A stretch of 64,000 nucleotides of DNA from Sphingomonas bisphenolicum (lineage in GTDB: Bacteria; Pseudomonadota; Alphaproteobacteria; Sphingomonadales; Sphingomonadaceae), in NCBI RefSeq assembly GCF_024349785.1, contig NZ_AP018817.1, positions 2,015,501-2,079,500 of the forward strand, written 5' to 3'. Position numbers and translations under genes: made by a program. Positions within the stretch are counted from its first letter, which is position 1; every line of letters starts with the position of its first letter. The notes beneath the pieces were generated by a model. The model was not told where the DNA came from. It was given only the letters and a program-made list of their open reading frames with translations, and did not search any database. Shown here piece by piece: positions 3,835 through 23,247 of the stretch.

Positions 3835-3842
3835 TTATTGGC

Positions 3843-4799: not shown

Positions 4800-4844
4800 T
4801 AGAAGGAGGGGGACCTGGTCGATGTTGCCTTCGGCATGTAAGGG

Positions 4845-6301: not shown

Positions 6302-7090
6302 TTATCGAGGCCGCCTCTGTGCGAAATAGGCTTCACGATCTTCCGGCCCGTTGATCATCCAGCCGGCGTCCACCAGCAAATGGGTGCCGGTGCAGGCGGA
6401 GGAGGCATCTGAGCAGAAAAACAGAATGGGGCCGGCGATTTCCTCCGGACTGATCCATCGCTGCATCGCCGATTTCATCGGAATCGATTCATAGGCGTCG
6501 CGGCTGATCTTGTTCTTCATCTGGTCGGTCAAGATTGCGCCGGGCAGCACCGCGTTGACCCGGATGCCGTCAGACGCGAGTTCATAGGCGCAGTGCCGCG
6601 TGAGTCCCAGCAGGCCAGCCTTGGCTGCGGTGTAGCTGACACCGCTGTTAAGGGAGATACCCAGCGCGGCGAGGGATGCGACGATGACGATCGATCCGCC
6701 GCCTGTCCGGCGCAAAGCTGGTGTGGTAGCCTTGATCACGTTAAACGGGCCGGTCAGATTGAGGGCGATGGTGCGTTGCCAGTCTTCGGCGGTCATTGTG
6801 TCGATCGATCGCGGGAGGCCTCCCCCCGCGACATTGATGACCATGTCCAGCCGACCGAATTTCGTCTCGATCGCGGCGCAGGCTTCATCCATCGCCGCAA
6901 GATCGGTAACGTCTGCCAACAGCGGAAGTGTTTCAGGATAGCTGTCCCGGCACTGGTCCAGTCGTTCCGGGCTGTTGTCCACCAGAGCAAGACGTGCGCC
7001 GGCTTCAGCCAGCATCTGAGCCGTCGCGCCGCCGATCCCGCCTGCGCCGCCGGTGATGAGTGCGACCTTGCCTTCAAAATTCCTGATCAT
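6302..7090 (-). CDS. SDR-family NAD(P)-dependent oxidoreductase
   Basis: A classical short-chain dehydrogenase of 262 aa. The nucleotide-binding TGGAGGIGGATA (about residues 14-25) ends in a D (VDNS), which suggests NAD preference; NVAGG, the catalytic Ser in IVIVASLAALG and YTAAK (about 158-162) complete the active site. It follows the GMC oxidoreductase by 27 bp on the same strand. Likely role: oxidation or reduction of an alcohol/ketone in the cluster's pathway; the substrate is unknown. Confidence 0.88.
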   Translation of the reverse strand: MIRNFEGKVALITGGAGGIGGATAQMLAEAGARLALVDNSPERLDQCRDSYPETLPLLADVTDLAAMDEACAAIETKFGRLDMVINVAGGGLPRSIDTMTAEDWQRTIALNLTGPFNVIKATTPALRRTGGGSIVIVASLAALGISLNSGVSYTAAKAGLLGLTRHCAYELASDGIRVNAVLPGAILTDQMKNKISRDAYESIPMKSAMQRWISPEEIAGPILFFCSDASSACTGTHLLVDAGWMINGPEDREAYFAQRRPR

Positions 7091-8745: not shown

Positions 8746-10263
8746 CTACCGGATTGCCTGAAGAAGCCCGCCGTCAACGACGAGATTCTGGCCGGAGATG
8801 TAGCTGGCTTTGCGACTGGCGAGAAAGGCGACTGCTTCAGCCACTTCTTCGGGACGGCCCAGCCGCGGCGTTGGAAATCCGCGCGCGATCCTGTCGCGGT
8901 CTTCCGCAGGCAAGCTGGAGAGCTGGTTCATCGGTGTGTCGATCGATCCCGGCGACACCAGATTTGCCCGGACCCCGTACATCCCCCATTCCAGCGAGAT
9001 CTGGGCGACCAACCTGTTGAGCGCGGCTTTGGTGGCGCTGTACATCGGCGCGCGCGCGTTGGCGAGAAAGCTGGCGATGGAGGACGTCGCGACCAGCGCA
9101 CCGCCCGAGGCGCGCAGATGCGGAAAAGCCGCAATGGCCATCCGCCAGGTCGCGCTCAGGTTGATCTCCACGATCTTCGCCCATTGCGCGTCCGGCGCTT
9201 CGAGCGCGGCATCTGTAATGCCGTAGCCCGCGTTGCTGAACAGCACGTCCAGTCCCCCGAAATGGGCGACCGCTTGTTTGACAAGCATAGGACCGATGTC
9301 GGGATCGCCCAGGTCGGCGACGAGGGAATGTGCATAGATGCCCTCCGCGGAGAGGGCGCGTGCCGCTTCGGCAAGGCGAGCCGGATCGATATCGGCCACC
9401 AGCACGTCCAGACCCTCTTGCCCCTGTTCTTTCGCAAGGCGTGCCAGCGCAAGCACGGACGCCTTGCCGATGCAGCCGGCGCCACCGGTCACGATGGCGC
9501 GCAGCCTCTGCCCCAGCGCCGGAGGCGGCGCGGGTTCAGGCGCGGATTGACCGATGGCCGCGAACAACGTGGCCGTGGGACCCGCGTTGACGGAACGGCC
9601 ATCCAGCGCAACTGTCGCGCCATTCATGCCCGCGGCAGCGGGGCTCATCAGAAACGCGATGACATTGGCGATCTCGTCTGCGGGCTCCTGCCCGAAAGCT
9701 GTGGGCGAAAGGGACAGCAGGTTTGCGCGGACGCCCTTGACGGCTGCTTCGGCAGCGAGACTGCGCACGAGATTATATTCCAGCGTCTTGGCGATCCCGA
9801 ACGATCCGCCCCCCGGCAGGCTTTCTCGCGCAGCGCGGGAACTGACGGCCACCAGGCCCCCCTTCAAAGCTTCCAGCCTGGGAATGCACTCTTGCGCGGT
9901 CTTCCATGTCGCGCGCGCATTCCAGTTAAGCCCCGCATCCCAGTCTGCCGATGACATGTCTTTCAGCAGCCCTGGGGCATAATTCTCGAACCACAGAACC
10001 ACACCGTCGAGCGGTTCGGCATCCAGCGCGCTAGCCAAGGCCTCGGCGGTGAGAATTTCGGGCGATATGGTCGCGCTGTCGCAGGGCATTACCCGGCTGA
10101 GCATCGCAGAGGTTTCGGCATCGCTCATCAGGAAACGGATCGCGCAATGCCGGCCAAGACGGCTGGCACTCTCGCGCAACGCCTCGGCGGTCGCTTTGGC
10201 ATCCTCGAAGGCCCACGTACCGATGATGGCGTAGCGGAGGGGGGAGGGGCGATCACTACTCAT
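8746..10263 (-). CDS. Two-domain SDR fusion with degenerate N-terminal domain
   Basis: A 505-aa protein with two SDR domains. The C-terminal half is a complete classical SDR: AIVTGGAGCIGKAS glycine motif (about residues 256-269), NAGYG, the catalytic Ser region TSSIASFL, YSATK and PGSIDTPMN. The N-terminal half has SDR-like order (AIIGTWAFED without the glycine motif; VSSRAARES; SFGIAK with Phe where the catalytic Tyr belongs; a GMNGATVALDGRSV end), so it is probably inactive. ATG at 10263 has GGGAAAG upstream and leaves the operator region free; ATG at 10287 lacks a ribosome site. First gene of the minus-strand operon with the GMC oxidoreductase. Confidence 0.85.
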   Translation of the reverse strand: MSSDRPSPLRYAIIGTWAFEDAKATAEALRESASRLGRHCAIRFLMSDAETSAMLSRVMPCDSATISPEILTAEALASALDAEPLDGVVLWFENYAPGLLKDMSSADWDAGLNWNARATWKTAQECIPRLEALKGGLVAVSSRAARESLPGGGSFGIAKTLEYNLVRSLAAEAAVKGVRANLLSLSPTAFGQEPADEIANVIAFLMSPAAAGMNGATVALDGRSVNAGPTATLFAAIGQSAPEPAPPPALGQRLRAIVTGGAGCIGKASVLALARLAKEQGQEGLDVLVADIDPARLAEAARALSAEGIYAHSLVADLGDPDIGPMLVKQAVAHFGGLDVLFSNAGYGITDAALEAPDAQWAKIVEINLSATWRMAIAAFPHLRASGGALVATSSIASFLANARAPMYSATKAALNRLVAQISLEWGMYGVRANLVSPGSIDTPMNQLSSLPAEDRDRIARGFPTPRLGRPEEVAEAVAFLASRKASYISGQNLVVDGGLLQAIR

Positions 10264-10286: not shown

Positions 10287-10321
10287 TTCCGATATTAGAA
10301 AATATGTTCCATCAAACGGAA
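10287..10321. promoter_or_regulatory. Operator pair 1 (SDR fusion / iclR divergent promoter)
   Basis: TTCCATCAAACGGAA at 10307-10321 and the weaker TTCCGATATTAGAAA at 10287-10301, with centres exactly 20 bp apart. The same arrangement recurs in front of four other intergenic regions of this cluster. Because the IclR gene starts at 10408, the site is well placed for autoregulation and for control of the divergent operon. Confidence 0.65.
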
Positions 10322-10407
10322 TATACAGTCTTTGCAGAGGAGGCAAGAGCGCGGCTAGGAAAAAGCTTCTCACTCAGCGGAAAAACCGTCTAACAGACGG
10401 AGCGAAG

Positions 10408-11187
10408 ATGGAGGTATTGGAAATGCGGTCGGAAGGAACAGGTACGATCATTCGGGTCGTTCGGCTCATGCGGTGTCTGGCTGAGGCGCAAGGCGACATT
10501 TCCATTACTGATATCTCCCGCCAGCTCAATCTGGCGCCGAGCACCGTCCACCGCTTGCTCCAGCTGCTGCTGACCGAGGATATTGTCGCAAAGAGCAGCA
10601 CGCGCTCGCTTTACGGACCGGGGATGGAGTTGCTCCGGATTGCTGCGCTGCTTGCGAGCAAGATCCAGATCGGCGATGTGGCGCGCAATGTCATGCAAGG
10701 CGTATCAGAGCAGGCGCAGGAAGCGGTATTGCTGACCCAATTGTTGCCGCACGAACTTAAAGTGATGGTGACGGCGTCGGTCGCCTCGCCCCACCCCCTT
10801 CGTTATGACATCGATATGTTCCAACGTGGTTCGCTGCTTCGCGGCGCTACCGGACGCGCTATTCTAGCTTTCTTGGATGGCACGTTCATCGCCGAGATTT
10901 TTGACCGATTGTTGCAGGATGATAGCGATTCGACATTCGCAAACCGCGAGGACCAGCTCGCCGACCTCGCTGCAATACGGGCGCGAGGCTATGTCATCAC
11001 ACACGGACAGAAAGTGCCCGGCGCGGTGGGCATAGGAGCGCCTGTCTTCGATGGTCACAACAAAGTCGTGGCGGCTTTGTCGATCACCATGCCGGAACAG
11101 CGGTTTGCCGCCGCGCGTGCCGAGGAGCTGGCAAAAATCGTCGTCGATGGCGCGGCGGCTATCAGCAAGTTGCTCGGCCGGCGTTAG
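10408..11187 (+). CDS. IclR-family transcriptional regulator
   Basis: The 259-aa length is standard. The N-terminal winged helix (IIRVVRLMRCLAEAQGDISITDISRQLNLAPSTVHRLLQLLL, about residues 10-51) precedes an IclR effector domain (RGSLLRGATGRAILAFL about 145-161; GAVGIGAPVFDGHNKVVAALSITMPEQRF about 209-237). GGAG at 10399 supports ATG at 10408; the frame upstream runs through the divergent promoter. It is the only complete regulator inside the 4.8-25.5 kb cluster and is the prime candidate to bind the paired TTCC-N7-GGAA sites. Its 3' end overlaps the convergent M29 gene by 4 bp. Confidence 0.92.
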   Translation: MEVLEMRSEGTGTIIRVVRLMRCLAEAQGDISITDISRQLNLAPSTVHRLLQLLLTEDIVAKSSTRSLYGPGMELLRIAALLASKIQIGDVARNVMQGVSEQAQEAVLLTQLLPHELKVMVTASVASPHPLRYDIDMFQRGSLLRGATGRAILAFLDGTFIAEIFDRLLQDDSDSTFANREDQLADLAAIRARGYVITHGQKVPGAVGIGAPVFDGHNKVVAALSITMPEQRFAAARAEELAKIVVDGAAAISKLLGRR

Positions 11188-12215
11188 ACCCGTGCCGGGA
11201 TGTCGTTGCCGACACCCTCCTCATCGATCAGGATTTTGCCGTCGCGCGTCAGCAATTGCCCGTCGACGGAGACCTCCGGCTTGCTGATCACGCCCTCCAG
11301 GCGCAGCCGTGCATGGCAGGTGCCGCCCAGAGCGATCGTGTCGCCAAGTCCGATATGGACCGCGCCATACATCTTCTTGTCCGTCCGCATCTTGCCGGTC
11401 GGCGTTACCTTTGGATTGAGTCCAATGGCGATCTCCGCCGGGCAATTATAGTTGTTGTCGTCGGCGAAACGGGCGAGGATGTCTCGCCATATCTGTGCGC
11501 CGCGCCCGCCTTCGATAGAGATTGCGCGTCCATTCTTCACCTCGATCACGATCGGTTCATCCAGCAGGCCGGTGCTGTGCGCGGTCAGATCGAACACGAT
11601 CCTGCCATTCCCCGTGCCTTCCACCGGGCAGACATGCGCCTCGCCATCGGGAAAGGCGCAGCCGATGCCGCCTCCCGGGCGCATTTCCAGCGGCAGACCC
11701 GAAATTGATCGACCCGGCCTGTCCGTGATGCTGGCTGTGAGATTGGTCCCGTTCGGACATGTCACCGTGATGCTGTCGCCGCGCGTGTAGGTCTCGGCGA
11801 TTTTCAGGCCCAGTCGATTGAGTGCCGGATAATCGGCGCTGCCCGGGCCATCTTCGCCCAGCATGTCGGCGGACAATTCTTCCATCAGGATGAAGCGTTT
11901 GCGCTGATCGATAAACGCATCCGTCAGCTTGGCGTGGGCCATCGCTGTACTCGTGAGATAGATGCTGAGATCCGTCCTGGAATCCAGCGCGGCGTCGCAG
12001 ATGACGCCGGGCGGATTGGTCGAATGTGCCTCACGCGGGGTGATGACCGATACGATCGGTTCCATGCCCAGATCGACTGCCGCTCCCTGAAGCGCCGACC
12101 ACACCCGAGGATCGATGGCTGTGTCGGTTATGATGAGGACGCGCTCGCCTGCCTTCGCGTTGAGTTTGAGCGGCGTCTGAAGGACGCGGCGTAGCGACTG
12201 CTCGTCTATCGACAA
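11184..12215 (-). CDS. M29-type metalloprotein (aminopeptidase T / 2,5-dihydroxypyridine dioxygenase superfamily)
   Basis: A 343-aa protein with the family's metal-ligand region: AEIAIGLNPKV (Glu), then GAVHIGLGDT (His), then TCHARLRLEG (His). Annotation pipelines usually call such proteins leucyl aminopeptidase. The same fold and ligand set belong to NicX-type Fe(II) 2,5-dihydroxypyridine 5,6-dioxygenases. In a catabolic cluster with a Rieske oxygenase and a formamidase-like cyclase, a ring-opening or amidase role is at least as plausible as peptide cleavage. It has its own operator pair at 12282-12316 and overlaps the iclR stop tail to tail. Confidence 0.72.
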   Translation of the reverse strand: MSIDEQSLRRVLQTPLKLNAKAGERVLIITDTAIDPRVWSALQGAAVDLGMEPIVSVITPREAHSTNPPGVICDAALDSRTDLSIYLTSTAMAHAKLTDAFIDQRKRFILMEELSADMLGEDGPGSADYPALNRLGLKIAETYTRGDSITVTCPNGTNLTASITDRPGRSISGLPLEMRPGGGIGCAFPDGEAHVCPVEGTGNGRIVFDLTAHSTGLLDEPIVIEVKNGRAISIEGGRGAQIWRDILARFADDNNYNCPAEIAIGLNPKVTPTGKMRTDKKMYGAVHIGLGDTIALGGTCHARLRLEGVISKPEVSVDGQLLTRDGKILIDEEGVGNDIPARV

Positions 12216-12281
12216 TGGTGTTCCCCTAAAACTGCGTTTGACAGCCTATGTGATGCGTCTTGCCAATCTAAGCGGTGAAAA

Positions 12282-12316
12282 TACCACTTGGTAGAAGGCA
12301 ATTCCGACTACCGGAA
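12282..12316. promoter_or_regulatory. Operator pair 2 (upstream of the M29 gene)
   Basis: TTCCGACTACCGGAA at 12302-12316 (with flanking A and T, ATTCC/GGAAT arms) and the weaker TACCACTTGGTAGAA at 12282-12296; centres are 20 bp apart. It lies 67-101 bp upstream of the M29 start at 12215. Confidence 0.6.
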
Positions 12317-12409
12317 TAAATCATACGATGCGCATGTCAAGCGTCTTCCGGGACCTTGCTGTTTTTTACGATGGCAGAAGGTTAGAGGGCACATTCGCGC
12401 CGCATTGAG

Positions 12410-13711
12410 CTAGAGAAGATAGGCTCGAATCCGTGGGTGCAGATCCGCCTGCGCTAGCGCGGGGAAATCACGGTCGAAAGTCTCCGCATATCTGAGCAGA
12501 CAGTTGGTCGTTTTGGCCCGGAACGCCGTGTTAAACGTCGGATCGGCTGCGCTGCCCGGCATTATGTCCTGGACGATGCTGAGACTTTTCCCGCCGGCCG
12601 ATGTGACGTCGAGTGTCACATAGCCGTCATGCAGGCGCGTCCCGGATGACGTTTCGTTGGCCGAGACGTTGAATCGGCGCGCCAAGTCGAACAGGCGAGG
12701 CTCGCCGAAGCCTTTCGTGAGATGGCCGATGTCGAGTGTGCCGTCGCGCAGCGCAGCAGCGCAGCAATAGGGCGCGGAGAATGCGGCCTGCGTGCCATTG
12801 ACCGGCATGTCCGACAACAGGACGACATGGGACGCCGCCGGAAATGTGAGGATAAAGCGAACATCATCGTTGACGATCGCGTCGCCCATTATCCGCCTTG
12901 CCTCTAGAACGGCCGCGATGCCCCGATGGATCGCGAAACAGCAGGGATAGAATTTCGTCAACTGACGATCCGCCAGCGAAGGCGGCGCTATGGCGGCGAG
13001 GCCTTCTTCGGTCGGCCCATAATTGTTGCAGAAGCTCTCGCTCGTCAGGATCTCAGGGTTTCCCGTCAGGCCCAGAGCCGCCATATCCACCGCCCGCCGT
13101 GCCGCAAGTGCGGCAAATCCCGCATGCATCGCCTTTGCGTCCGAGCCGAAATTTCCCTGAAGGCCCGACATCTGCGACGCGGCGATGGCGACCGCGTTGG
13201 TCAGGTGTCGAGGCGATAACCGACGGTATCGCGCCAGACTTACCGTTGCGGCGATCGTGCCTATCGTAGAGGTGGCATGCCAGCCGCGTCTGTAGTGGTC
13301 AGGACCAAGCCAATCGGCGAGCATTCCCGCGGCGACCGTAGCCGTCAGAATTGCGTCTAGGAGGGCCTCTTCGTCTTGAGGCATGTTTTCCGCCAGAAGG
13401 ACGGGGACGACGATACAGCTCAGATGCGCGGAACTATATATATCCACGTCGTCGAAATCGAGCGCATGCGCCGCCATCGAATTGACGAAGACTGCGTCAT
13501 CGACGCTCCTGCGACCGATGCCATCCCACGATACCGCTAACGGGGAGGCAAGGACCGCATGATGTTCGGAAACCCGTCTCACGCTCGGCATGCAGTAGCC
13601 GGCCGCCGCCACCGCCAAGGTGTCGGCGATCGCTCGGGCTGCAATTTCCCGATCGTTCGCGGCGAAGGCGACGGTTGCGGCAGAGCGCAGTCGATCCATC
13701 ACGAGGTCCAT
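12410..13711 (-). CDS. MmgE/PrpD-family protein
   Basis: A 433-aa protein of the family that includes 2-methylcitrate dehydratase and cis-aconitate decarboxylase. Visible family blocks are AARAIADTLAVAAAG (near residue 25), VNSMAAHALDFDDVD, the GW HATSTIGTIAAT stretch with the conserved His, GLQGNFGSDAKAMHAGFAA and LTKFYPCCFAIHRGIAAVLEA. Likely a dehydratase, isomerase or decarboxylase on a di- or tricarboxylic-type intermediate. Start choice: ATG at 13711 is used; a TTG at 13747 would add 12 residues and cannot be excluded. It follows the cyclase gene by 64 bp and is probably last in the SnoaL, cyclase, PrpD operon. Confidence 0.8.
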   Translation of the reverse strand: MDLVMDRLRSAATVAFAANDREIAARAIADTLAVAAAGYCMPSVRRVSEHHAVLASPLAVSWDGIGRRSVDDAVFVNSMAAHALDFDDVDIYSSAHLSCIVVPVLLAENMPQDEEALLDAILTATVAAGMLADWLGPDHYRRGWHATSTIGTIAATVSLARYRRLSPRHLTNAVAIAASQMSGLQGNFGSDAKAMHAGFAALAARRAVDMAALGLTGNPEILTSESFCNNYGPTEEGLAAIAPPSLADRQLTKFYPCCFAIHRGIAAVLEARRIMGDAIVNDDVRFILTFPAASHVVLLSDMPVNGTQAAFSAPYCCAAALRDGTLDIGHLTKGFGEPRLFDLARRFNVSANETSSGTRLHDGYVTLDVTSAGGKSLSIVQDIMPGSAADPTFNTAFRAKTTNCLLRYAETFDRDFPALAQADLHPRIRAYLL

Positions 13712-13775
13712 GCCTCGCGTCCTTAGCAAACTGCCAAGGCTAGCCAATCGTTAAGTCGCTTAGCCGCACTGGCGT

Positions 13776-14507
13776 TTAATCGATGGCCCGCGCCATCGCG
13801 CGTGCGGGGCCGCCGTCAGCGCCCTGAATAGAGAGCGCGGCGAAGATCGCCTCGATACGTCGGCCCGACAGGGGCGCGAGATTGGTGACATGCTCGGCGA
13901 TCAAAATGCCTCGGCTAAGCAGAATGCGATGCACCGGATACGCGAAGCCTTTCGGCCGCAGCGCGGCGCCCAGATCCGGCGTGCTGAAATCCACACCGAG
14001 CATCTTGACGCCTCGCTCCACCAGCCAACTGGCGGCTTCCGCCGTCAAATAGGGGTGGTCCTCATAGTCATGATCGGCGATGCGCCGCCACCATCCCGTA
14101 TCCAGCAGGACAATGTCGCCCCGCCGGATTTCCGGCCCGGCGGCCGCCAGATCAGCTGCATCGATCGCCTCGTTGGGGCCCTTGTCAAGGCGCAGCACGA
14201 CGCCTGGTCCGTAAAGGCGTTCCAGCGGAATGTCCTCGAAGGCGGGGCCATCCAAAAGGAAATGACGTGGAGCGTCCACATGTGTGCCATGATGGCAGAC
14301 CATGCAGATTTCCGTGGCATTGCCGGGATAATCGGGCTGACTGTAGATACGCTCGATTCTCGGCTTCGGAAAAATCGGCGAGCGCGACAGGTCCTCGGTT
14401 ATGACATGCGACAGATCGGTCCAAGGTCCGTGACCTGTGATGTCGGGACGGGGGGCATCGCTCCATCCTATCCATATGTCGCTAGGCTGATGGTCATGCT
14501 GGCACAT
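13776..14507 (-). CDS. Cyclase-family metal-dependent hydrolase (kynurenine formamidase / isatin hydrolase fold)
   Basis: The 243-aa protein carries the PF04199 motif HGTHVDAPRHF (about residues 73-83), whose His and Asp residues bind the divalent metal, plus DTGWW and a later LGVDFSTPD. Family members hydrolyse cyclic amides or formamides (arylformamidase, isatin hydrolase) or act on polyketides. The neighbouring M29/NicX-like protein and ring oxygenase make hydrolysis of a ring-cleavage product a reasonable guess. A single-mismatch copy of the cluster's operator motif (TTCCGTCAAATGGGG, 14515-14529) lies just upstream of the start. Confidence 0.82.
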   Translation of the reverse strand: MCQHDHQPSDIWIGWSDAPRPDITGHGPWTDLSHVITEDLSRSPIFPKPRIERIYSQPDYPGNATEICMVCHHGTHVDAPRHFLLDGPAFEDIPLERLYGPGVVLRLDKGPNEAIDAADLAAAGPEIRRGDIVLLDTGWWRRIADHDYEDHPYLTAEAASWLVERGVKMLGVDFSTPDLGAALRPKGFAYPVHRILLSRGILIAEHVTNLAPLSGRRIEAIFAALSIQGADGGPARAMARAID

Positions 14508-14595
14508 CGAAACATTCCGTCAAATGGGGTTGTGGTCCGTGTGCGCTGCGTCACCAGATTTACGAGCGCGCGCACGAACGGCTACGTTAGTATGC

Positions 14596-15027
14596 TCAGC
14601 CCGGCCCATCGGGCAGTGCCAGAAACAGCTTGCGCGAAGCGAGTTTCCAACCGTCCGCCGTGCGACGCACCGTATCGAAATAATCACCACATCGCCATAC
14701 GCGCTTGGGCTCGCCATCGGGATCCATAACGGCAAAGGTGGCCATCGCGCAACGCAACCGGACCGTGTCGCCATCGACCGCCAATATCTTCAGATTGGTC
14801 CACAAATGCCGGGCGACGAAGCTGCGGTCGGCCGCACGGCCAGTGAATGTCGCCATCACGTCCTCACGCCCGTTGAGGGCGCCCATGCCTACGTCGAACG
14901 CGATATCGTCCGTGATCAGGCTATCGAACAGGGCCGGATCGCGGTCATCGACGGCGATGCTGACGTCCGTCAGCAAATCCTCGATGGCGATTCGATCCTG
15001 TGGGTTCAATGCGAGGCTGCTGGTCAT
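14596..15027 (-). CDS. SnoaL-like (NTF2-fold) protein
   Basis: A 143-aa protein of the nuclear-transport-factor-2 fold: an N-terminal helix (PQDRIAIEDLLTDVSIAVDDRDPALFDSLITDDIAFDV), HLWTNLKILAVDGDTVRLRC strands and a WRCGDYFDTVRRTADGWKLASRKLFL end. Such proteins serve as isomerases, dehydratases, hydroxylase partners or small ligand binders; the beta subunits of Rieske dioxygenases share the fold, but the true beta subunit is at 20.4 kb. ATG at 15027 is chosen because GGAGAGGA precedes it at ideal distance; an ATG eight codons upstream would bury that site. Confidence 0.75.
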   Translation of the reverse strand: MTSSLALNPQDRIAIEDLLTDVSIAVDDRDPALFDSLITDDIAFDVGMGALNGREDVMATFTGRAADRSFVARHLWTNLKILAVDGDTVRLRCAMATFAVMDPDGEPKRVWRCGDYFDTVRRTADGWKLASRKLFLALPDGPG

Positions 15028-15099
15028 GAACTGTTCCTCTCCTTTGGGCATGCATCAATGCGGCAGTAACAACTTTGATCTGTGAGTGATCCCATTTCA

Positions 15100-15134
15100 T
15101 TCTATACAACGGAAAAATATTCCGTATATAAGAA
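15100..15134. promoter_or_regulatory. Operator pair 3 (SnoaL / SDR divergent promoter)
   Basis: TTCTATACAACGGAA at 15100-15114 and TTCCGTATATAAGAA at 15120-15134, centres 20 bp apart. Each has one strong and one weaker half, in mirror arrangement. It sits midway between the divergent starts at 15027 and 15173. Confidence 0.65.
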
Positions 15135-15172
15135 TTTACTGACGAGGCGTGCAACTACGCAGTGGAGAGGAC

Positions 15173-16030
15173 ATGGCCCGCATCAATTTTCAGGATATGG
15201 TTGGCGTCGTTACCGGCGGCGCCTCCGGCATCGGCGAGGGATTGGCACAAGCCATGCGGGTGCGCGGAATGGATGTCGTCATTGCCGATCTGGATGCCGC
15301 CCGTGGACAATCTGCCGCAGACGCGATCGGTGCGCATTTTCATATGGTCGATGTCGCTGACGCGGGATCGGTTGCGACCCTTGCTGACTTCACGATGCGG
15401 CGTTTCGGTCGCGTGGATATGGTCTGCAACAATGCCGGGGTAGGTCCTGCCTCCAGTATCGCGGACATGACGCTCGACGACTGGCGCTGGATGCTCGACG
15501 TCAATCTGTGGGGCGTGATCCATGGCATACATGCCTTTCTCCCCCTGTTGCGGCAAGCCAAGCGCGGTTTCTTTCTCAACACGGCATCCTTGTCGGGCCT
15601 TGCGGCGCTGCCAGGGCGTGCCGGCTATGCAACAGCGAAGTTTGGCGTCGTCGCCCTGACCGAAGTTCTGGCGGCGGAAATGGCGCTGGAGGGCGCGAAC
15701 ATCACCGCCACCGTACTTTGCCCCGGTCCTACCCGGACGGGAATCGCCTTCGGCTCGCGCCACCGCAAGCTCGACGGACAGGCGACCGGCCTCAGGGATT
15801 TCGATCTTACCGGCGGCGGCGGCGTGCTTGCCGCCCATGAAGTCCGCTTTCTTGAACCACGAGAGGTCGCCGAACTCTGCTTTTCCGCGATGGAGCGGGG
15901 CGATCTCTATGTTCAAACCCATCCGGAACTGGCCAGTCGGGTTGTCGCCCGTCACCGGGAGATTGAAAAGTCGTTCGAAGCTGCCCTTCCGGCACGGTTG
16001 CCGAGGGAAATGTCACTGGGAGAGAATTGA
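15173..16030 (+). CDS. SDR-family oxidoreductase
   Basis: A 285-aa classical SDR: VVTGGASGIGEG (about residues 11-22), IADLDAA (Asp after strand 2, NAD type), CNNAGVGPAS, the catalytic Ser region NTASLSGLA and YATAK (about 159-163). GGAGAGG lies just upstream of ATG 15173. The stop abuts the start of the next SDR (TGA|ATG), so translation is coupled. The sister SDR downstream shares length and local wording (DWRWMLDVNLWGVIHGIH versus DWRWVFDVNFWGVVHGLN), so the two look like a tandem duplication. Confidence 0.88.
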   Translation: MARINFQDMVGVVTGGASGIGEGLAQAMRVRGMDVVIADLDAARGQSAADAIGAHFHMVDVADAGSVATLADFTMRRFGRVDMVCNNAGVGPASSIADMTLDDWRWMLDVNLWGVIHGIHAFLPLLRQAKRGFFLNTASLSGLAALPGRAGYATAKFGVVALTEVLAAEMALEGANITATVLCPGPTRTGIAFGSRHRKLDGQATGLRDFDLTGGGGVLAAHEVRFLEPREVAELCFSAMERGDLYVQTHPELASRVVARHREIEKSFEAALPARLPREMSLGEN

Positions 16031-16888
16031 ATGAAGATCGACAACTTCAACGATCGGGTCGCCGTCATCACCGGCGGTGCAGCGGGCATCGGCAGGGCGC
16101 TGGCGGAATTGTTGCAGGAAGGCGGTGCCACGGTCGTTATCGCGGACCTCCCTGGTGAAACGTTGGATGCGACGGCGCTCGATCTCGGCATCACGGCGAT
16201 CGCCTGCGACGTGAGCGATGCGACGGCGATGGATTCGCTAGCCGCTCAAGTGATGCAGCGCCATGGGAAGGTCGACCTGCTCTTTAACAATGCGGGCGTG
16301 GGATTCCAGCAAAGCCTCTACAAAATGTCGCTCCGCGACTGGCGCTGGGTGTTCGACGTCAATTTCTGGGGTGTCGTGCATGGACTGAACAGCTTTCTTC
16401 CTCACCTCACGACGAACCCGGACGGTGCCTATGTCGTGAATACGGCTTCGTTGCTAAGCCTGTACACAAACTCCGCGCTGGCGGCCTACGCCGCTTCCAA
16501 ATATGCTGTGCTGGCGGTGACGGAGACATTGGCGCGGGAAATGGAATTGACCGACGGAAAGGTGGGCGTCACCGCTTTCTGTCCCGGACCGATCCAGACC
16601 ACTATCTATGGCAGTCTCGACCGGCGTGACCAGCGCTATGGACCGCCGCCGACCAGCGACGCCACGGACGATCCGGTGATGAAGGCTTTAGGCCACATCA
16701 TGGATGCAAAGCGGATGTCCGCCCGCGATGCAGCGCAGATCGCCTTGGATGCGGTTCGCAATGGCAGGTTTTGGGCCATTACACACCCGGAATATACACA
16801 GCAGATCGCCCCGGAGCATGACGCGCTGATGGCGGAAATAGAACGCCAGCGCTCCTCGCAAGCGCTCTCTAAAGCTCCCCTAGCCTGA
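16031..16888 (+). CDS. SDR-family oxidoreductase (paralogue of the preceding gene)
   Basis: A 285-aa classical SDR with VITGGAAGIGRA (about residues 11-22), IADLPGE, FNNAGVGFQQ, the active-site Ser in NTASLLSLY and YAASK (about 157-161). The start codon directly follows the stop of the previous gene. It resembles that gene strongly in the middle region but diverges in the C-terminal substrate loop (YGSLDRRDQRYGPPPTSD), suggesting a duplicated pair with different substrates or stereochemistry. Confidence 0.88.
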   Translation: MKIDNFNDRVAVITGGAAGIGRALAELLQEGGATVVIADLPGETLDATALDLGITAIACDVSDATAMDSLAAQVMQRHGKVDLLFNNAGVGFQQSLYKMSLRDWRWVFDVNFWGVVHGLNSFLPHLTTNPDGAYVVNTASLLSLYTNSALAAYAASKYAVLAVTETLAREMELTDGKVGVTAFCPGPIQTTIYGSLDRRDQRYGPPPTSDATDDPVMKALGHIMDAKRMSARDAAQIALDAVRNGRFWAITHPEYTQQIAPEHDALMAEIERQRSSQALSKAPLA

Positions 16889-16898
16889 AAGAAAGCCG

Positions 16899-17765
16899 AT
16901 GACTGTAACGATGATCGAATCGTTCCGCTGTGGGATCGGCGAGGGCGTACTGTGGGACGAGAGGGAGCAGCGGGTTTATGCGGTCGATATCTTGGCGCGC
17001 CAGATCGTGCGATATGATCCGATCGCTGGCAGCGCGGAGCGGTTCGATGTCGGAGAAATCATCGGTTCTATGGCGCTGCGTGAAACAGGAGGCGCCGTGC
17101 TCGGCTTGGCGACCGGCGTTTCGCTCTTTGACTTCGACAGCGGCGAAGCGCGGCTCCTGGTCGATGTGGAACCGGAAGATCGGTCCCTGCTGCTAACAGA
17201 AGGTAAAGCCGATCCCGCAGGCCGCTTTGTGGTCTCCAGTTTCGCGATGGCGATGAGAGAACCGGTAGGGTCATTCTTCGCAATCGGTCGCGACGGCGGA
17301 GCTACGCGATTGCGCGGAGGAGTGACGGTGCCGAACGGTTTGGCTTGGTCGCCCGATGGCAAGACCATCTATTTCGCCGACAGCGCTCGCAACGCGGTCT
17401 TCGCCGCAGACTATGATCTCGAGCGCGGCCTATTGTCCAACGAGAGGCTTTTTGCCGAAACAGCGGCGCTCGGTGGCATCCCAGATGGAGCAACCGTCGA
17501 TTCCGAAGGCAATTATTGGGTAACGATCTGTCAGGCAGGGCAGGTCGCCTGCTTTGACGACAGGGGAAAGCTGGTTCGCTCGATTGAACTTCCCTGCAAA
17601 TGGGTTTCCAGCCTGGCTTTCGGAGGAGCCGGTCTTGATCGGCTATTCGTCACGAGCCTTGATCCTTCGCTGATGAATATGGGCAGTGATCCCTTGGGCG
17701 GCCATATGTTCGTGATCGACGAGATCGACGCGACAGGCCTCGGCGCGACCCGGACTCTTCTCTGA
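16899..17765 (+). CDS. SMP-30/gluconolactonase-family lactonase
   Basis: A 288-aa six-bladed beta-propeller hydrolase. Family blocks: GEGVLWDER (metal-binding Glu, about residue 14), VPNGLAWSPDGKTIYFADSA (metal-binding Asn, about 146) and GIPDGATVDSEGNYWV (about 198-213, with the catalytic Asp). It hydrolyses sugar or other lactones with a divalent metal. Ten bases separate it from the second SDR, so SDR, SDR, lactonase form an operon; an SDR-made lactone opened by this enzyme would be a natural pairing. Confidence 0.88.
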   Translation: MTVTMIESFRCGIGEGVLWDEREQRVYAVDILARQIVRYDPIAGSAERFDVGEIIGSMALRETGGAVLGLATGVSLFDFDSGEARLLVDVEPEDRSLLLTEGKADPAGRFVVSSFAMAMREPVGSFFAIGRDGGATRLRGGVTVPNGLAWSPDGKTIYFADSARNAVFAADYDLERGLLSNERLFAETAALGGIPDGATVDSEGNYWVTICQAGQVACFDDRGKLVRSIELPCKWVSSLAFGGAGLDRLFVTSLDPSLMNMGSDPLGGHMFVIDEIDATGLGATRTLL

Positions 17766-17884
17766 GGCCTCGGCTTATGTGCGGTATCGGCTTGCGGAAA
17801 GCAGAAGGCAATCGGAGCCTGAAGCCGCTGCAGGCCAAGAAGATTCCCTGCCGGCGGTGGCTAGGGTTGCCATCAGGCGGCGTT

Positions 17885-17919
17885 GTGCTATAAACGGAAA
17901 ATAATTCTATTCAATGGAA
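17885..17919. promoter_or_regulatory. Operator pair 4 (upstream of the esterase / Rieske operon)
   Basis: TTCTATTCAATGGAA at 17905-17919 and GTGCTATAAACGGAA at 17885-17899 (one good half), centres 20 bp apart. It lies 34-68 bp before the chosen start of the beta-lactamase-fold gene. Confidence 0.6.
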
Positions 17920-17952
17920 TTCGCAATGATCGAGATTGGGAGCGGTGCCACG

Positions 17953-19089
17953 ATGAGCGTTCAGGGTCGGTGCGACGAACGATTTGCGCACGTCCGCGAT
18001 ATTTTTGAAAAATCTTTCGAGGATGGTGAAGAAGTCGGCGCGGCCGTTTCCGTCATTATTGAAGGCGAAACCGTCGTAGATATGTGGGGCGGCTATCAGG
18101 ACGCGGCGAAAACGCGCCCGTGGCATGAAGACACGATCGTGTGCTGCATGTCTTCCTCGAAGGGCGTAACAGCGATCTGCTTCATGATGGCGGTCGATCG
18201 CGGGCTGATCGACATCCATGCGCCGGTCGCCCGATATTGGCCGGAATTCGCGCAGAACGGAAAAGCGGATCTGCCCATCCGTTTCGTCCTCGATCACCGC
18301 GCCGGACTACCCTATATCGAGGAGCTGGGGCCGGGCACGCTCTATGATTATGACGCCGTGATTGCGCAGTTGGCGAAGCAGAAGCCACTCTGGGAGCCCG
18401 GTACGGTCGCGGCCTATCATGTCATTTCGCAGGGCTTCCTGCTTGGCGAGATATTGCGTCGCACCACCGGCATGAAAGTCGGCGAATTCTTCCGTTCGCA
18501 GGTCGCCGAGCCGCTGGGTATCGATTATCATCTCGGATTGAGGCCGGACGAAAGCGCGCGTTGCGCTGATTTTCTGGTTCCGCCTGACGTCTTCGCCGGC
18601 CGCCACTCGCCCGAGCCCACTGTGATGAGTCTGGGCTTCGCGCAATTCCCCGACCAGCCGATGGATATCGTGCTCAATGCACCCGAATGGCGTGTCGCCG
18701 AGGTGGCGAGCGGCAGCGGCCACGGCAATGCGCGGGCGCTCGCCCGGCTGTGGAGCGCAGTTGCCAATGGCGGCACGCTGGATGGCGTTCGCCTGATGTC
18801 CGAAAAGGCTGTCAGGCTGCTGGGAACGATGCAGCATGAAGAGGTCGAGCAGCGGGCGAACAAGGTGTATCGCCAAGGACTGGGGCTGTTGCTCAACTCG
18901 CCGCCGACGATGGGGTTCGGTCCCAATCCGGATTCCTTTGGCCATGGAGGCGTCGGCGGGTCGCTCGGCTTCGTCGATCCCGCGCGGCGGCTGAGCTACG
19001 GTTATACCCCCAACCGGATGCACAATACGCTGGCCGCCGGCCCTCGCGCCGATCGGTTGGTCGAGGCGACCTTTGCCTGCACTCCCTGA
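17953..19089 (+). CDS. Serine hydrolase of the beta-lactamase / family VIII esterase fold
   Basis: A 378-aa protein, probably an esterase like EstB. The catalytic S-x-x-K is in CMSSSKGVT (near residue 75), the tyrosine motif is in AAYHVISQGFLLGEI (near residue 155) and the third box is FGHGGVGGS (near residue 330), HGG in place of KTG as in esterases. No signal peptide is seen, so it acts in the cytoplasm. The start at 17953 has GGGAG upstream; an upstream ATG (17914) overlaps the operator and one at 17926 lacks a ribosome site. It heads the operon with the Rieske oxygenase and probably removes an ester group from the substrate or an intermediate. Confidence 0.82.
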   Translation: MSVQGRCDERFAHVRDIFEKSFEDGEEVGAAVSVIIEGETVVDMWGGYQDAAKTRPWHEDTIVCCMSSSKGVTAICFMMAVDRGLIDIHAPVARYWPEFAQNGKADLPIRFVLDHRAGLPYIEELGPGTLYDYDAVIAQLAKQKPLWEPGTVAAYHVISQGFLLGEILRRTTGMKVGEFFRSQVAEPLGIDYHLGLRPDESARCADFLVPPDVFAGRHSPEPTVMSLGFAQFPDQPMDIVLNAPEWRVAEVASGSGHGNARALARLWSAVANGGTLDGVRLMSEKAVRLLGTMQHEEVEQRANKVYRQGLGLLLNSPPTMGFGPNPDSFGHGGVGGSLGFVDPARRLSYGYTPNRMHNTLAAGPRADRLVEATFACTP

Positions 19090-19136
19090 TCCACGAGGCT
19101 TCGGGCGCCCCCCACTATAGTATGAAGGAGAAGGTG

Positions 19137-20435
19137 ATGCTGGCGCAGGAAACAATGGCGCGGTCTTTCGATCCCGCTGAATTTGTGAAGGGCGACGAAG
19201 TCCACCGGGACGTTTACGCCAGTCCCGAGATTTTCGAGCTTGAGATGAACCGGCTGTTCGCCAGGAGCTGGCTGCTGGTGGGTCACGAAAGTCAGGTGAC
19301 AAAGGCAGGCGATTACTATCTGACCAGCGTAGCTACCCGGCCGACAATCATTGTGCGGGATGCCTCCGGCGCGGTCCACGCTTTTCTCAATTCCTGTCCG
19401 CACCGCGGTGCGCCGCTGCGCACGGACGCGCGTGGTAACACGCCGCGTTTCGTATGCCCCTATCACAGTTGGACGTTCAAGACCGACGGTACGCTCGCCG
19501 GCATGCCGCTGCGGTCGGAATATGGCGCGGACTTCGACTGGGAAGGCCACTGCCTGCACAAGGTAGGGGAAGTCGCCATATATCGTGGCTTCCTGTTTGT
19601 CAGCGCGGCGCCGGTCACGGATCTGGAGACTTTTCTCGGCGATTTTGCAGGGGCCTTCGACGATTTTGTCGACCGGGCACCCGACGGCGAGATCGAAGCG
19701 CAGCCCATCGTCCAGCGGCACGTCTATCGCGGCAACTGGAAACTCTATCTGGAAAATCTCAACGACGCGCTGCACTTCACCTCGACACACGCCTCGGCCG
19801 CCACGGCGCTTCAGATGGTCGAGGACAAGAGCCGCCTGTCGCCGGAAATGATGCTGGGTGCGATCAATCCCACGCCCAATCAGATGCGCGACCACACCTT
19901 CGTCAAATATTATCCGTTCGGCCACAGCTACACGGGCGGCGCGCCGCAACTGGGCGGCGCGAAGGTGGGGCCGGGCGATCCGGTGTTTGATGCCGTGGCC
20001 GCGCGGCGCGGTGAGGATGAAGCACAACGCGTGATCGGCACAAGCCGTCACATCTCGCTCCTCTACCCCTCCGCCAGCGTGAATGCGCGAATGAGCACGA
20101 TCCGCATCGTCCGTCCGATCGCGGTGGACCGCACCGAAATCGTCGCGTTGCTGTTCAAGCTGAAGGGGGCGCCGGAATCGGTGTACAAGACGACCGTATT
20201 CTACAACTGGGCGTCGGGATCGCCGAGTTCGTTTGCGCTCGCAGACGATATTGAAATGTTCGAGCGGCTTCAGCGCACATATCGCGATGACAGCCGGCGG
20301 TGGAGTTCAGTGCACAGGGGAAGCCACGACGAGACGCAGCGTGATGGTCAGGAGGTGAGCATCACGGGAACGAGCGAGGCCTATATCAAGAATCAATTCG
20401 ATGCTTGGGGTGCATTGATGCGTGAGGAGGCGTGA
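19137..20435 (+). CDS. Rieske non-heme iron ring-hydroxylating oxygenase, alpha subunit
   Basis: A 432-aa catalytic subunit. The Rieske [2Fe-2S] ligands are CPH (C87, H89) and CPYH (C107, H110). The mononuclear iron site follows in GNWKLYLENLNDALHFTSTHAS (two His), with an Asp probably in ALADDIEMFE. ATG at 19137 is preceded by AAGGAG, which the alternative ATG at 19122 would overlap. The beta subunit begins 2 bp after the stop. It likely dihydroxylates an aromatic ring. No ferredoxin or reductase gene is in the window, so electron partners must come from elsewhere. Confidence 0.92.
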   Translation: MLAQETMARSFDPAEFVKGDEVHRDVYASPEIFELEMNRLFARSWLLVGHESQVTKAGDYYLTSVATRPTIIVRDASGAVHAFLNSCPHRGAPLRTDARGNTPRFVCPYHSWTFKTDGTLAGMPLRSEYGADFDWEGHCLHKVGEVAIYRGFLFVSAAPVTDLETFLGDFAGAFDDFVDRAPDGEIEAQPIVQRHVYRGNWKLYLENLNDALHFTSTHASAATALQMVEDKSRLSPEMMLGAINPTPNQMRDHTFVKYYPFGHSYTGGAPQLGGAKVGPGDPVFDAVAARRGEDEAQRVIGTSRHISLLYPSASVNARMSTIRIVRPIAVDRTEIVALLFKLKGAPESVYKTTVFYNWASGSPSSFALADDIEMFERLQRTYRDDSRRWSSVHRGSHDETQRDGQEVSITGTSEAYIKNQFDAWGALMREEA

Positions 20436-20437
20436 TC

Positions 20438-20938
20438 ATGGATACGATGACCATGAGTAAGGTGGAGGCCGTCAGCAATTTTTTATATGGCGAGGCCCAA
20501 CTTCTGGACGACAAACGGTTTCACGAATGGCTCGCCCTCTTCGACGATGACGGCTATTATTGGGTTCCGGTCGATCCGCAGAGCGAAGAACGCCTGGCAA
20601 GCCCTTCCATCTTCGACGCGGACAAGCCTTTTCTGGAGATCATCGTCAATCGCTTGTACCTCGACACGGCCTATTCCTTCCTGCCCGCGCCGCGATGCTG
20701 TCGCTTCGTCTCCAATATTACGATCCTTAATGACCGTCAGGGTGTGATATCGGTCCGCTCGAAGCTCCTTTATGATGAATATCGGACTTTGGAAGCGGCC
20801 CCCGACGATCATCGCAGCCTTGCAGGGACGGTGCATCATGAACTGGCGCGGAAGAACGACGGGTTCGTCATCCTCTCAAAACGGGTTGATCTGATCCAGT
20901 CCGCCGCCGCGCTCAGCGCCATTTCAGCACCGATCTGA
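20438..20938 (+). CDS. Ring-hydroxylating dioxygenase beta subunit
   Basis: A 166-aa protein of the NTF2 fold, normal for dioxygenase beta subunits (FLYGEAQLLDDKRFHEWLALFDDDGYYWVP; VNRLYLDTAYSFLPAPRCCRFVSNITI). It has a structural role with the alpha subunit in an A3B3 complex. GAGGAGG seven bases before ATG 20438 decides the start; a GTG at 20432 overlapping the alpha stop is less likely. Confidence 0.9.
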   Translation: MDTMTMSKVEAVSNFLYGEAQLLDDKRFHEWLALFDDDGYYWVPVDPQSEERLASPSIFDADKPFLEIIVNRLYLDTAYSFLPAPRCCRFVSNITILNDRQGVISVRSKLLYDEYRTLEAAPDDHRSLAGTVHHELARKNDGFVILSKRVDLIQSAAALSAISAPI

Positions 20939-20953
20939 AGCACGCGGCGAACG

Positions 20954-21694
20954 ATGCGTTTCAACGGCAAGACGGTCCTGATTACCGGTGGAGGATCGGG
21001 CATCGGGGCGGCGACGGCGCGAAAATTTGCCGATCATGGCGCGCAAGTGGCGATCGCAGATATCGACATGGGCGCAGCGGAGGCCGTCGCTGCGACCATG
21101 TCGGGCAAGGCAAGCGCGGTGCAGGTCGATGTCACCGACCCCGCATCGGTCAATGCCATGGTGCAACATGTTGTTGACCGCTTTGGCCGCCTAGACTGCG
21201 CCTTCAACAATGCAGGCATTGGCGGGGCCCACAAGACTATTTTCGAACTCGATCATGACGAATGGCGACGGACGATCGACGTCAATCTTTCCAGCGTCTT
21301 TCATTGCCTGAAGGCCGAGGCCGAGGCCATGCGCGACCGTGGCGGTGCTATCGTCAATACCGCATCTGTCTCCGGCATCATCGCTACGCCCAGAGGCACG
21401 GAATATTGTGCGGCCAAGCATGGGGTAGTGGGTCTGACGAAGTCCGCTGCGCTCGACCTCATATCCCATGGCATCCGTGTGAACGCCGTTTGTCCAGGTG
21501 CGACCGATACGCGCCTATTGGCCCGCGCCATGGGAAACACTGTTCTCGCCGATCACCTCAAGTCGATGATCCCGATAGGCAGGATCGCCCACCCGGATGA
21601 AATCGCGAATCTGGTGCTGTTCCTGGCGTCGGACGAGGCAAGCTATGTGGTCGGGCAATGCATCGCCGTCGATGGCGGCGCCATCGTCCAGTAG
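20954..21694 (+). CDS. SDR-family dehydrogenase, probable dihydrodiol dehydrogenase partner
   Basis: A 246-aa classical SDR: LITGGGSGIGAATA (about residues 8-21), ADIDMGAA, FNNAGIGG, the catalytic Ser in NTASVSGII, YCAAK (about 153-157), PGATDTRLL and a VGQCIAVDGGAIVQ end. It is 15 bp after the dioxygenase beta subunit, so it is the best candidate for rearomatising the cis-diol to a catechol; a secondary alcohol elsewhere in the molecule is the alternative. Confidence 0.88.
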   Translation: MRFNGKTVLITGGGSGIGAATARKFADHGAQVAIADIDMGAAEAVAATMSGKASAVQVDVTDPASVNAMVQHVVDRFGRLDCAFNNAGIGGAHKTIFELDHDEWRRTIDVNLSSVFHCLKAEAEAMRDRGGAIVNTASVSGIIATPRGTEYCAAKHGVVGLTKSAALDLISHGIRVNAVCPGATDTRLLARAMGNTVLADHLKSMIPIGRIAHPDEIANLVLFLASDEASYVVGQCIAVDGGAIVQ

Positions 21695-21781
21695 GCACAG
21701 CCATGCCGGCGTCGAGTTCGATCTCATTATCTTGCGGTGCGCTACGAGAACCAGCCGCCCAGACGGCCGGCTCTTTCGCTA

Positions 21782-22957
21782 TTACAGGGCCTTTAGTCTG
21801 ATGGGCGAGTATCCAAAACCCGTCGTCACATTATTCATCAGAATAGTGGCTTCGCCTGCGGCCTCGATTTCGGACACCTGCGCGAGCAGGGCACCTATCA
21901 GCGCCTCATATTCCAGACGAGCCAGGCTCTGGCCGATGCATGTATGAATTCCGAAACCGAAGGCGAGATGGCCGGTGGCCTTGCGATACGGATCGAACTC
22001 GTCGGGCCTCTCCCAGTGACGCGGATCGCGCCCTGCTGCCGCTATGCCAAGCGCGATCTGGTCGCCTTTGGCGATGGCTATGCCCTCGATCTCGCAATCC
22101 TCAGCCGCGACGCGATTGCTGTATCGGCCGGGTGGATACATGCGCAGAGCTTCCTCGAAGGCGTTACGGCGGATTGCGGGGTCATCTAGGGCTCGCCAAT
22201 GCTGCGGATTGCGCGCTATCAGCGTGAGGAAATTGGTCAGCGCCAAGATTGTCGTATCGAACCCGGCAAAGAGAACGGTCTGGACCAGCAGAGCGGCGTC
22301 TTCCTCGCTGACTTTTCCCTGATCGGCCAGCATGTAGATCTGTTCTGCCATCCCATCTGGCGTCACGCTCGAGCGAGCGCAGCTTGTCTGAAGCCAACCA
22401 AAGCCTGGTCCCGCCTTTTCCATCGCGGCTGCGGTCCGGGCATTCCCGGTTCCGAACGCGTTAAGCACAGCTTGGCCGATCGTAATCAGCTGATCACGCC
22501 CTTCGGCCGGTAGGCCGAGCAGGTCGGGAAAGGCCTTCAGAATAAATCTGCCGGCCAATTTGGCGGCATCGATTTCGCGCTCATCCAATGCCTCTGCAAC
22601 CATAAGGCGGGCAACGGAATCGAACTGCTCTTTCGCGCGCATCATTGCCGCAGGGGAAAACACAGGCGTGATGGCGGCACGCGCCTCGCCATGCTTGGGC
22701 GGATCATCGCCCAGCAGGATGGGTAGGGCAATCGAGGCGCTGGAGTTGAACGGGTTCGCCTTGGACGAAAACAGCTTCGGATTGCCGTAGACCTTTTTCG
22801 CTGCGCGATGCTGCCCCACGAACCAGCTTTCATATTGCGAAACCCATACGGCTGGTCCGGCTTCACGCATCTGGCCATCGAACGCATGCGCGTTTGCAAC
22901 GGACTCGTCTGAAAACAGGTCGTGATCAAAAGTGGCGTACGCGATCTGAGTGCTCAT
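21782..22957 (-). CDS. Cytochrome P450
   Basis: A 391-aa soluble bacterial P450. Heme-binding FGFGIHTCIGQ (Cys about 340), I-helix AGFDTTILALTNF (oxygen-activation AG-x-DTT, near residue 235), the ExxR helix EEALRMYP and RDPRHWERPDEFDPYR before the heme loop are all intact. No ferredoxin lies next to it. It is divergent from the TonB receptor, and the region between them holds two operator pairs. Likely hydroxylates or O-dealkylates the imported compound. Confidence 0.92.
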   Translation of the reverse strand: MSTQIAYATFDHDLFSDESVANAHAFDGQMREAGPAVWVSQYESWFVGQHRAAKKVYGNPKLFSSKANPFNSSASIALPILLGDDPPKHGEARAAITPVFSPAAMMRAKEQFDSVARLMVAEALDEREIDAAKLAGRFILKAFPDLLGLPAEGRDQLITIGQAVLNAFGTGNARTAAAMEKAGPGFGWLQTSCARSSVTPDGMAEQIYMLADQGKVSEEDAALLVQTVLFAGFDTTILALTNFLTLIARNPQHWRALDDPAIRRNAFEEALRMYPPGRYSNRVAAEDCEIEGIAIAKGDQIALGIAAAGRDPRHWERPDEFDPYRKATGHLAFGFGIHTCIGQSLARLEYEALIGALLAQVSEIEAAGEATILMNNVTTGFGYSPIRLKAL

Positions 22958-22983
22958 ACCTGCCTACTCGGATAAAGGATGAC

Positions 22984-23018
22984 TCTAGATAAACGGAAAA
23001 TCATATCGATCAACGGAA
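22984..23018. promoter_or_regulatory. Operator pair 5 (P450 side of the P450 / TonB-receptor promoter)
   Basis: TCTAGATAAACGGAA at 22984-22998 and TATCGATCAACGGAA at 23004-23018; each has one strong GGAA half, with centres 20 bp apart. It lies 27-61 bp upstream of the P450 start. Confidence 0.55.
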
Positions 23019-23034
23019 TTATTCTGATTGAAAA

Positions 23035-23069
23035 TTCCATTAAATGGAATAGCATTTTTTTTAGTGGAA
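23035..23069. promoter_or_regulatory. Operator pair 6 (TonB-receptor side)
   Basis: TTCCATTAAATGGAA at 23035-23049 is a perfect palindrome and the best site in the window; TTTTTTTTAGTGGAA at 23055-23069 is its weak partner 20 bp away. A further half-site in inverse orientation, TTCCGTTTATC, is at 23081-23091. Confidence 0.65.
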
Positions 23070-23247
23070 TATCGATCCTGTTCCGTTTATCACGCCATCA
23101 ATCGCTGCGGTGAATCCGGAAAGTTCGGAGGCAACGGCGAGTGCGATGAGATGATGCCATCACCGAGCCCTTGGTAGCGGTGTGTGTGGACCAAAGCGTC
23201 GCAGGGTTGAAAAGACAATGACGCATCGGGAAGGGGGTGCTTTGACA

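Follow-up and report, generated by a model that had tools for sequence, protein, structure and literature searches.

Described IclR Operators and the Sphingomonas Locus

The closest described counterparts of the six operator pairs examined here are binding sites of IclR-family regulators; the pairs accompany a gene for such a regulator in a 64-kb stretch of Sphingomonas bisphenolicum DNA (contig NZ_AP018817.1, positions 2,015,501–2,079,500), which is referred to below as the window and has a GC content of 63.9%. According to the main-text parts of PMC8222616 (Suvorova and Gelfand 2021), group 1 of the IclR sites comprises a subgroup WTT-11-AAW with the consensus WTTYCRYW3RYGRAAW, and tandem binding sites at a distance of 18–22 bp, mainly 19–21 bp, are predicted for 94 IclR groups. 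All 12 half sites in the window fit this consensus, at 13–17 of 17 positions, and the centre distance is 20 bp in six of six pairs, inside the published range; the same parts of the article contain no mention of this regulator or cluster.

Three other described systems show both likenesses and differences. TtgV of Pseudomonas putida (PDB 2xrn/2xro) belongs to the IclR family (profile match, E = 7.4e-15), and its tetramer on a long operator, a DNA complex referred to in the main-text parts of PMC8222616, is a model for cooperative binding; this protein, however, controls efflux pumps, and the operators were likened by description. PcaU, PobR and HmgR, IclR-family regulators of aromatic catabolism with more than one dimer-type box, are described in the same parts of PMC8222616 as binding boxes of GTNCG type, arranged as one palindrome and a single half site outside it, whereas two whole TTCCR-type palindromes are present here. 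PheR of Sphingobium SHPJ-2 is an IclR-type repressor that has a 44-bp footprint, governs a cluster for aromatic catabolism and is released by the substrate, but the sections of PMC13273656 consulted state GCAACG as its core, report footprinting of one operon promoter and describe no tandem pair.

Sequence comparison indicates that the six pairs are very probably tandem operators of the IclR protein encoded among them, which would control its own gene and seven further units between 4.8 and 25.5 kb. This local regulon, proposed in an earlier note on the same DNA, is the best-supported reading because the pairs are confined to the cluster within the genome and tandem sites recur beside related iclR genes; in addition, the site type is a published one.

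Paired Sites in the Window

The six pairs of 15-bp operators are present where the earlier note had placed them (Table 1), with a start-to-start spacing of 20 bp in six of six. Each has the layout TTCC-N7-GGAA-like, N5, TTCC-N7-GGAA-like and is built of imperfect 15-bp palindromes of the TTCCRT-N3-AYGGAA type. The 15-mer given in that note proved loose: the sites exist, but an exact match to TTCCRTNNAACGGAA occurs at 10307 only, and single copies are barely enriched, with 28 matches at up to three mismatches vs a shuffle mean of 18.1 (28 was reached in 2 of 100 shuffles). Enrichment of single 15-mers was rejected as stand-alone evidence, being too weak.

The significance resides in the pairing. 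When weight matrices were trained on five pairs, the held-out pair ranked first in six of six cases among about 63,400 window positions, whether or not the matrices were symmetrised, the training pairs and their surroundings up to 60 bp being excluded. Scored with the published subgroup consensus WTTYCRYWWWRYGRAAW, which was derived without this sequence, the pairs reach 27–32 of 34 and outrank every other 20-bp pair of the window, the best of which scores 25. If both halves are required to score at least 13 of 17, exactly these six pairs are found at spacing 20, vs 0–2 at each other spacing from 12 to 60; with the threshold lowered to a sum of at least 24, the pairs found with the published consensus are not specific to a 20-bp spacing. 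When the window was shuffled 200 times within 100-bp blocks, which preserves the AT-richness of promoters, 20-bp pairs scoring at least 27 numbered 0.02 on average and one at most. The weak enrichment of single sites and the AT-rich DNA in which the pairs sit could suggest that promoter DNA in a GC-rich genome mimics the motif by chance. This explanation is exceedingly improbable, being already contradicted by the leave-one-out ranks, by six pairs vs 0.02 expected in the local shuffles and by the absence of any other such place in the 5.2-Mb genome at E ≤ 10.

According to the gene models, all six pairs are entirely non-coding, in a region (4845–25545) that is 6.2% non-coding; several of the start codons used for this count are 1–29 bases off from the listed ones, which affects no pair. 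By coordinate arithmetic, site centres lie 31–114 bp upstream of the likely starts, with the exception of the TonB receptor (186–206 bp). Translation of the esterase more likely begins with an in-frame ATG at 17953, the open reading frame (ORF) start at 17914 falling within operator pair 4.

The iclR leader also contains an unpaired site (10368–10382; 15/17 to the published consensus) that starts 61 bp after site 10307. An inverted repeat, CCGTC..GACGG, then occupies 10386–10400.

Confinement to the Cluster and Recurrence Beside Related Regulators

A 45-column model built from the six pairs (R1) was searched against the whole 5.2-Mb genome and at E ≤ 10 returned nine rows, all from the six operator pairs, of which three were matched on both strands. 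Because R1 had been trained on the six pairs, a second model (R2) was built from 10 sites, on both strands, in seven loci of other bacteria only, located beside IclR relatives; its training excluded the sites of L003, L004, L034, L041, L043, L045 and L046 (other spacing, a diverged TCCC/GGGA form or a weak second half). At E ≤ 10, R2 gave 10 rows, with 150 of 485 candidates scored. The rows represent five of the six pairs, of which four were matched in both orientations, plus a single weak row (E 6.5) that overlaps the second half of pair 5; no match outside the cluster was found among the 150 candidates scored. Random scatter of the sites in the genome, which the earlier note had named as an outcome that would speak against the regulon, is thus not what the search returned: the sites are confined to the cluster in 5.2 Mb at E ≤ 10.

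The regulator is assigned to the IclR family by HTH_IclR (PF09339; 47.2 bits vs a cut-off of 22) and IclR_C (PF01614; 89.7 vs 24), and Pfam detects no other regulator in the 18 genes scanned between 4.8 and 25.5 kb. In a set of 5.8 billion proteins its closest relatives are 78%, 68% and 60% identical, followed by others at ≤57%, and a scan of reference genomes revealed 30 loci with IclR proteins 24–43% identical. Operators of the same kind recur beside these regulators: R1 rows at E ≤ 0.1 were obtained in 10 of the 17 nearest loci (L031–L047), to which the Salipiger plasmid described below is added, in one of 13 more distant loci (L048–L060) and in one of seven loci from same-genus or same-order genomes (L003–L009).

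Near IclR relatives that are 36–43% identical (Roseomonas, Neorhizobium, Aminobacter and Salipiger), tandem sites precede homologues of the same genes. In Roseomonas (L031, L032, L035) the PrpD homologue (38%) is preceded by a tandem site and the M29 homologue (64–65%) by a strong palindrome whose partner 20 bp away is weak; promoter alignments show both as conserved blocks. A Salipiger plasmid carries a pair with 16/17 in both halves, the end of which lies 18 bp upstream of an M29 homologue (60%), the first in a series of M29, aldehyde dehydrogenase, GMC, P450, lactonase, SDR and TRAP transporter genes, with the IclR gene (36%) beyond the far end; the Neorhizobium match from the search that found this pair is the L037 site again. 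In Aminobacter (L036) the pair precedes OCD-PrpD-M29-DctPQM-iclR, and in Neorhizobium (L037) the pair, PrpD, M29 and iclR have a like arrangement, with unnamed intervening genes. In L039 and L041 a pair accompanies the IclR gene despite different cargo (CoA transferases, xanthine dehydrogenase family), IclR being the one gene found common to these site-bearing loci.

The published consensus alone gives a similar picture. In 20 IclR loci it yields 12 pairs at 20 bp and five at 21 bp, vs 0–4 at other distances from 12 to 60, some of the 21-bp counts being shifted readings of 20-bp pairs. Eight more distant IclR loci, a group from which L048, L049, L050, L056 and L057 were left out by a GC cut (<0.55), contain five pairs at 20 bp vs 0–2 elsewhere, and some of these adjoin the IclR gene. 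The 20-bp peak is therefore also present in distant loci, which supports a trait that is family-wide and not special to this clade.

The differing neighbourhoods bear on the question whether another regulator, for example the LysR protein encoded at 3825–4799, binds the pairs. LysR regulators, too, occupy two neighbouring dyads, spanning roughly 50 bp, the lysR gene adjoins the cluster, and two consensus sites of at least 13/17 are located upstream of it (window 3674–3738). These two sites are, however, 50 bp apart, neither a 20-bp pair nor an R1 match precedes lysR, IclR genes in differing surroundings are accompanied by the site, and its sequence is the IclR subgroup consensus given in the main-text parts of PMC8222616. 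Binding by LysR is very improbable, and the IclR protein remains the preferred candidate for binding the pairs.

Other forms of the site were seen as well. In the same-genus relatives L003 (2318–2353) and L004 (1347–1382), with IclR proteins 32–35% identical, a 21-bp pair is present just 5′ of their own iclR. A Variovorax locus (L034; IclR 42%) contains tandem sites at 4832–4963 and 7626–7660 in which TCCC/GGGA replaces TTCC/GGAA, possibly reflecting a shift of specificity.

Mechanism and Sign of Control

One dimer would bind each 15-bp palindrome, and the 20-bp step, equal to two turns, would let two dimers face the same side of the double helix, enabling cooperative binding as a tetramer. 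From gene order we infer that the six pairs govern eight starts: SDR-SDR/GMC/SDR/MFS, iclR, M29-like, SnoaL-cyclase-PrpD, SDR-SDR-lactonase, esterase-Rieske-SDR, P450 and TonB receptor. The IclR protein would then regulate its own gene together with seven catabolic and uptake units. It most likely represses them and would be released by the pathway substrate or an intermediate, the effector probably being an aromatic acid or a related heterocycle. The eighteen genes may be turned on together to break down one compound.

Repression is the tentative preference because the sections of PMC13273656 consulted describe IclR regulators of aromatic catabolism as typically repressors and because an operator overlaps the TATAAA of the esterase promoter. 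Here the first palindrome of pair 4 lies over TATAAA, with TTGCCA 16 bp upstream. Alternatively, IclR could be an activator that recruits polymerase from the tandem sites when the effector is present, which is judged unlikely but deserves consideration: pairs 1, 2 and 3 are centred 74–114 bp upstream of the iclR, M29 and SnoaL starts, leaving room for activation. PcaU and PobR are IclR-type activators. Together with HmgR they have related three-box sites in the main-text parts of PMC8222616. The covered esterase TATAAA fits repression rather than activation; this promoter matches at 10/12, which 1% of shuffles equal, though it is the best of eight promoters tried. The same is true of the TonB receptor, where a site lies over a −35/−10-like spacer, though 28% of shuffles do as well. 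The other six of the eight promoters, examined by a looser promoter search, were uninformative on sign, and the promoter scan of a promoter and terminator search was at chance level (4 matches vs 4.6).

Several observations weigh against a local, IclR-repressed regulon. No R1 row at E ≤ 10 was obtained in seven of the 17 nearest loci (L033, L035, L038, L040, L042, L044 and L047); at L035, sites are seen by weight matrix and promoter alignment despite the absent row. In a Variovorax locus (L063; IclR 34% identical) the search found no site. R2 misses the pair before the M29-like gene (12282/12302) at E ≤ 10, scored only 150 of the 485 first-look candidates and was trained on sites first indicated by R1 or its matrix; its independence is good, if incomplete. 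Under stricter filters, the operator was not found in any of 60 related genomes at E ≤ 0.01 (genome G034, whose locus L004 gives a weaker R1 row, is among them), and therefore no close phylogenetic footprint is available. Finally, the sign of control rests on one −10/−35 overlap among eight promoters.

Genes of the Cluster and Possible Substrate

The operators and genes of the cluster are listed in Table 1.

Table 1. Operator pairs and genes of the predicted IclR regulon (window coordinates).
Feature	Position	Strand	Remarks
MFS transporter	4845..6215	-	Aromatic acid/H+ symporter-like, below that family's cut-off
SDR	6302..7090	-	55–57% identical to SDR beside Roseomonas iclR
GMC oxidoreductase	7118..8737	-	
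SDR-SDR fusion	8746..10263	-	Two SDR stretches in one frame; ORF to 10287
Operator pair 1	10287..10321		Sites start 10287/10307; between divergent SDR-SDR fusion gene and iclR
IclR-family regulator	10408..11187	+	HTH_IclR + IclR_C (Pfam)
M29-like protein	11184..12215	-	Below Pfam cut-off; profile relation to 2,5-dihydroxypyridine dioxygenase 7cn3
Operator pair 2	12282..12316		Sites start 12282/12302; 5′ of M29-like gene; weakest of six; missed by relatives-only model R2
MmgE/PrpD protein	12410..13747	-	
PF04199 cyclase	13776..14507	-	
SnoaL-like protein	14596..15027	-	ORF to 15051
Operator pair 3	15100..15134		Sites start 15100/15120; between divergent SnoaL-cyclase-PrpD and SDR-SDR-lactonase genes
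SDR	15173..16030	+	ORF from 15149
SDR	16031..16888	+	
SMP-30/gluconolactonase-type protein	16899..17765	+	
Operator pair 4	17885..17919		Sites start 17885/17905; 5′ of esterase-Rieske-SDR genes; first site overlaps −10-like TATAAA at 17889–17894
Beta-lactamase-fold esterase	17953..19089	+	Nearest solved: carboxylesterase 5gmx
Rieske oxygenase alpha subunit	19122..20435	+	
Rieske oxygenase beta subunit	20432..20938	+	
SDR	20954..21694	+	
Cytochrome P450	21782..22957	-	Solved relatives mostly CYP199 type
Operator pair 5	22984..23018		Sites start 22984/23004; adjoins P450 start
Operator pair 6	23035..23069		Sites start 23035/23055; P450/TonB-receptor intergenic region, as pair 5; 51 bp from pair 5
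TonB-dependent receptor	23248..25545	+	Likely start 23248; ORF 23182–25545

The nearest solved structure of the P450 is the putative P450 2fr7 (E 9.8e-69), followed by CYP199-type entries. For the Rieske alpha subunit, the ring-hydroxylating oxygenases 7yls/8h2t and 9o71 come first (E 1.5e-85), followed by phenylpropionate/cinnamate and phthalate dioxygenases. Solved relatives of the cyclase include metal-dependent hydrolases, kynurenine formamidase and isatin hydrolase, and those nearest to the SMP-30-type protein are regucalcin/SMP-30. In the SDR-SDR fusion, the better-scoring SDR stretch covers approximately residues 264–508.

This predicted gene content is consistent with a candidate substrate of aromatic or heteroaromatic nature, an ester or an acid, that enters via the TonB receptor; the neighbourhoods in Salipiger and in a haloarchaeon do not settle the substrate by their gene content. 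The match to 7yls/8h2t, presumably IadD/E, raises the tentative idea of an auxin-type (indole-3-acetic acid) pathway. MarR control is known from auxin loci, as a title in the reference list of PMC10374108 also indicates. Neither structure code is present in PMC10374108. Among the open-licence PubMed Central articles listed in literature searches, none describes such a cluster in its title or the opening of its abstract.

The M29-like protein scores 19 bits against Peptidase M29 (PF02073; cut-off 27) and is related to the 2,5-dihydroxypyridine dioxygenase NicX by profile (profile A4 vs 7cn3, E 2.6e-13), the single sequence giving only E 0.1. In NicX a C-terminal H-x-D is a metal-ligand motif; the NicX segment CHLDIPL is aligned to LRLEGVI in the M29-like protein, and among nine aligned sequences H-I-D is kept only in the archaeal one (L064). 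Because the Pfam M29 cut-off is missed and the H-x-D of NicX is absent, neither the name aminopeptidase nor dioxygenase would be warranted on these alignments.

Proteins from L031, L032, L033, L035, L036, L037 and L065 are likewise related to NicX by profile and lack the C-terminal H-x-D; some of them are recorded as aminopeptidases. The haloarchaeal L064 protein, 40% identical and with H-x-D kept, is encoded near NTF2-like, SDR and PrpD genes.

Distribution and Significance

The M29-like gene was detected in none of the 60 related genomes at E ≤ 1e-30, and at E ≤ 1e-40, among 397 genomes of the family, in the window's own genome and in none of the other 396. The cluster looks acquired. Tentatively, and with some doubt, the regulon may mark an undescribed catabolic pathway of alphaproteobacteria, with variable partner genes around a recurring IclR / M29-like / PrpD core. 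Its M29-like enzyme, having lost the H-x-D of NicX, would perform a new ring- or lactam-processing step, and IclR would sense its substrate.

This kind of tandem IclR operator is already known; the new element is an uncharacterised catabolic cluster as a member. As regulation it is of a described kind and no surprise, and its value is mainly that of a handle on an unknown pathway. Seventeen uncharacterised genes are tied to one regulator with a precise operator, and the operator model helps to locate sister clusters in other bacteria. The substrate is findable, since a compound releasing IclR from the operator fragments would be expected to be the pathway substrate or one of the intermediates.

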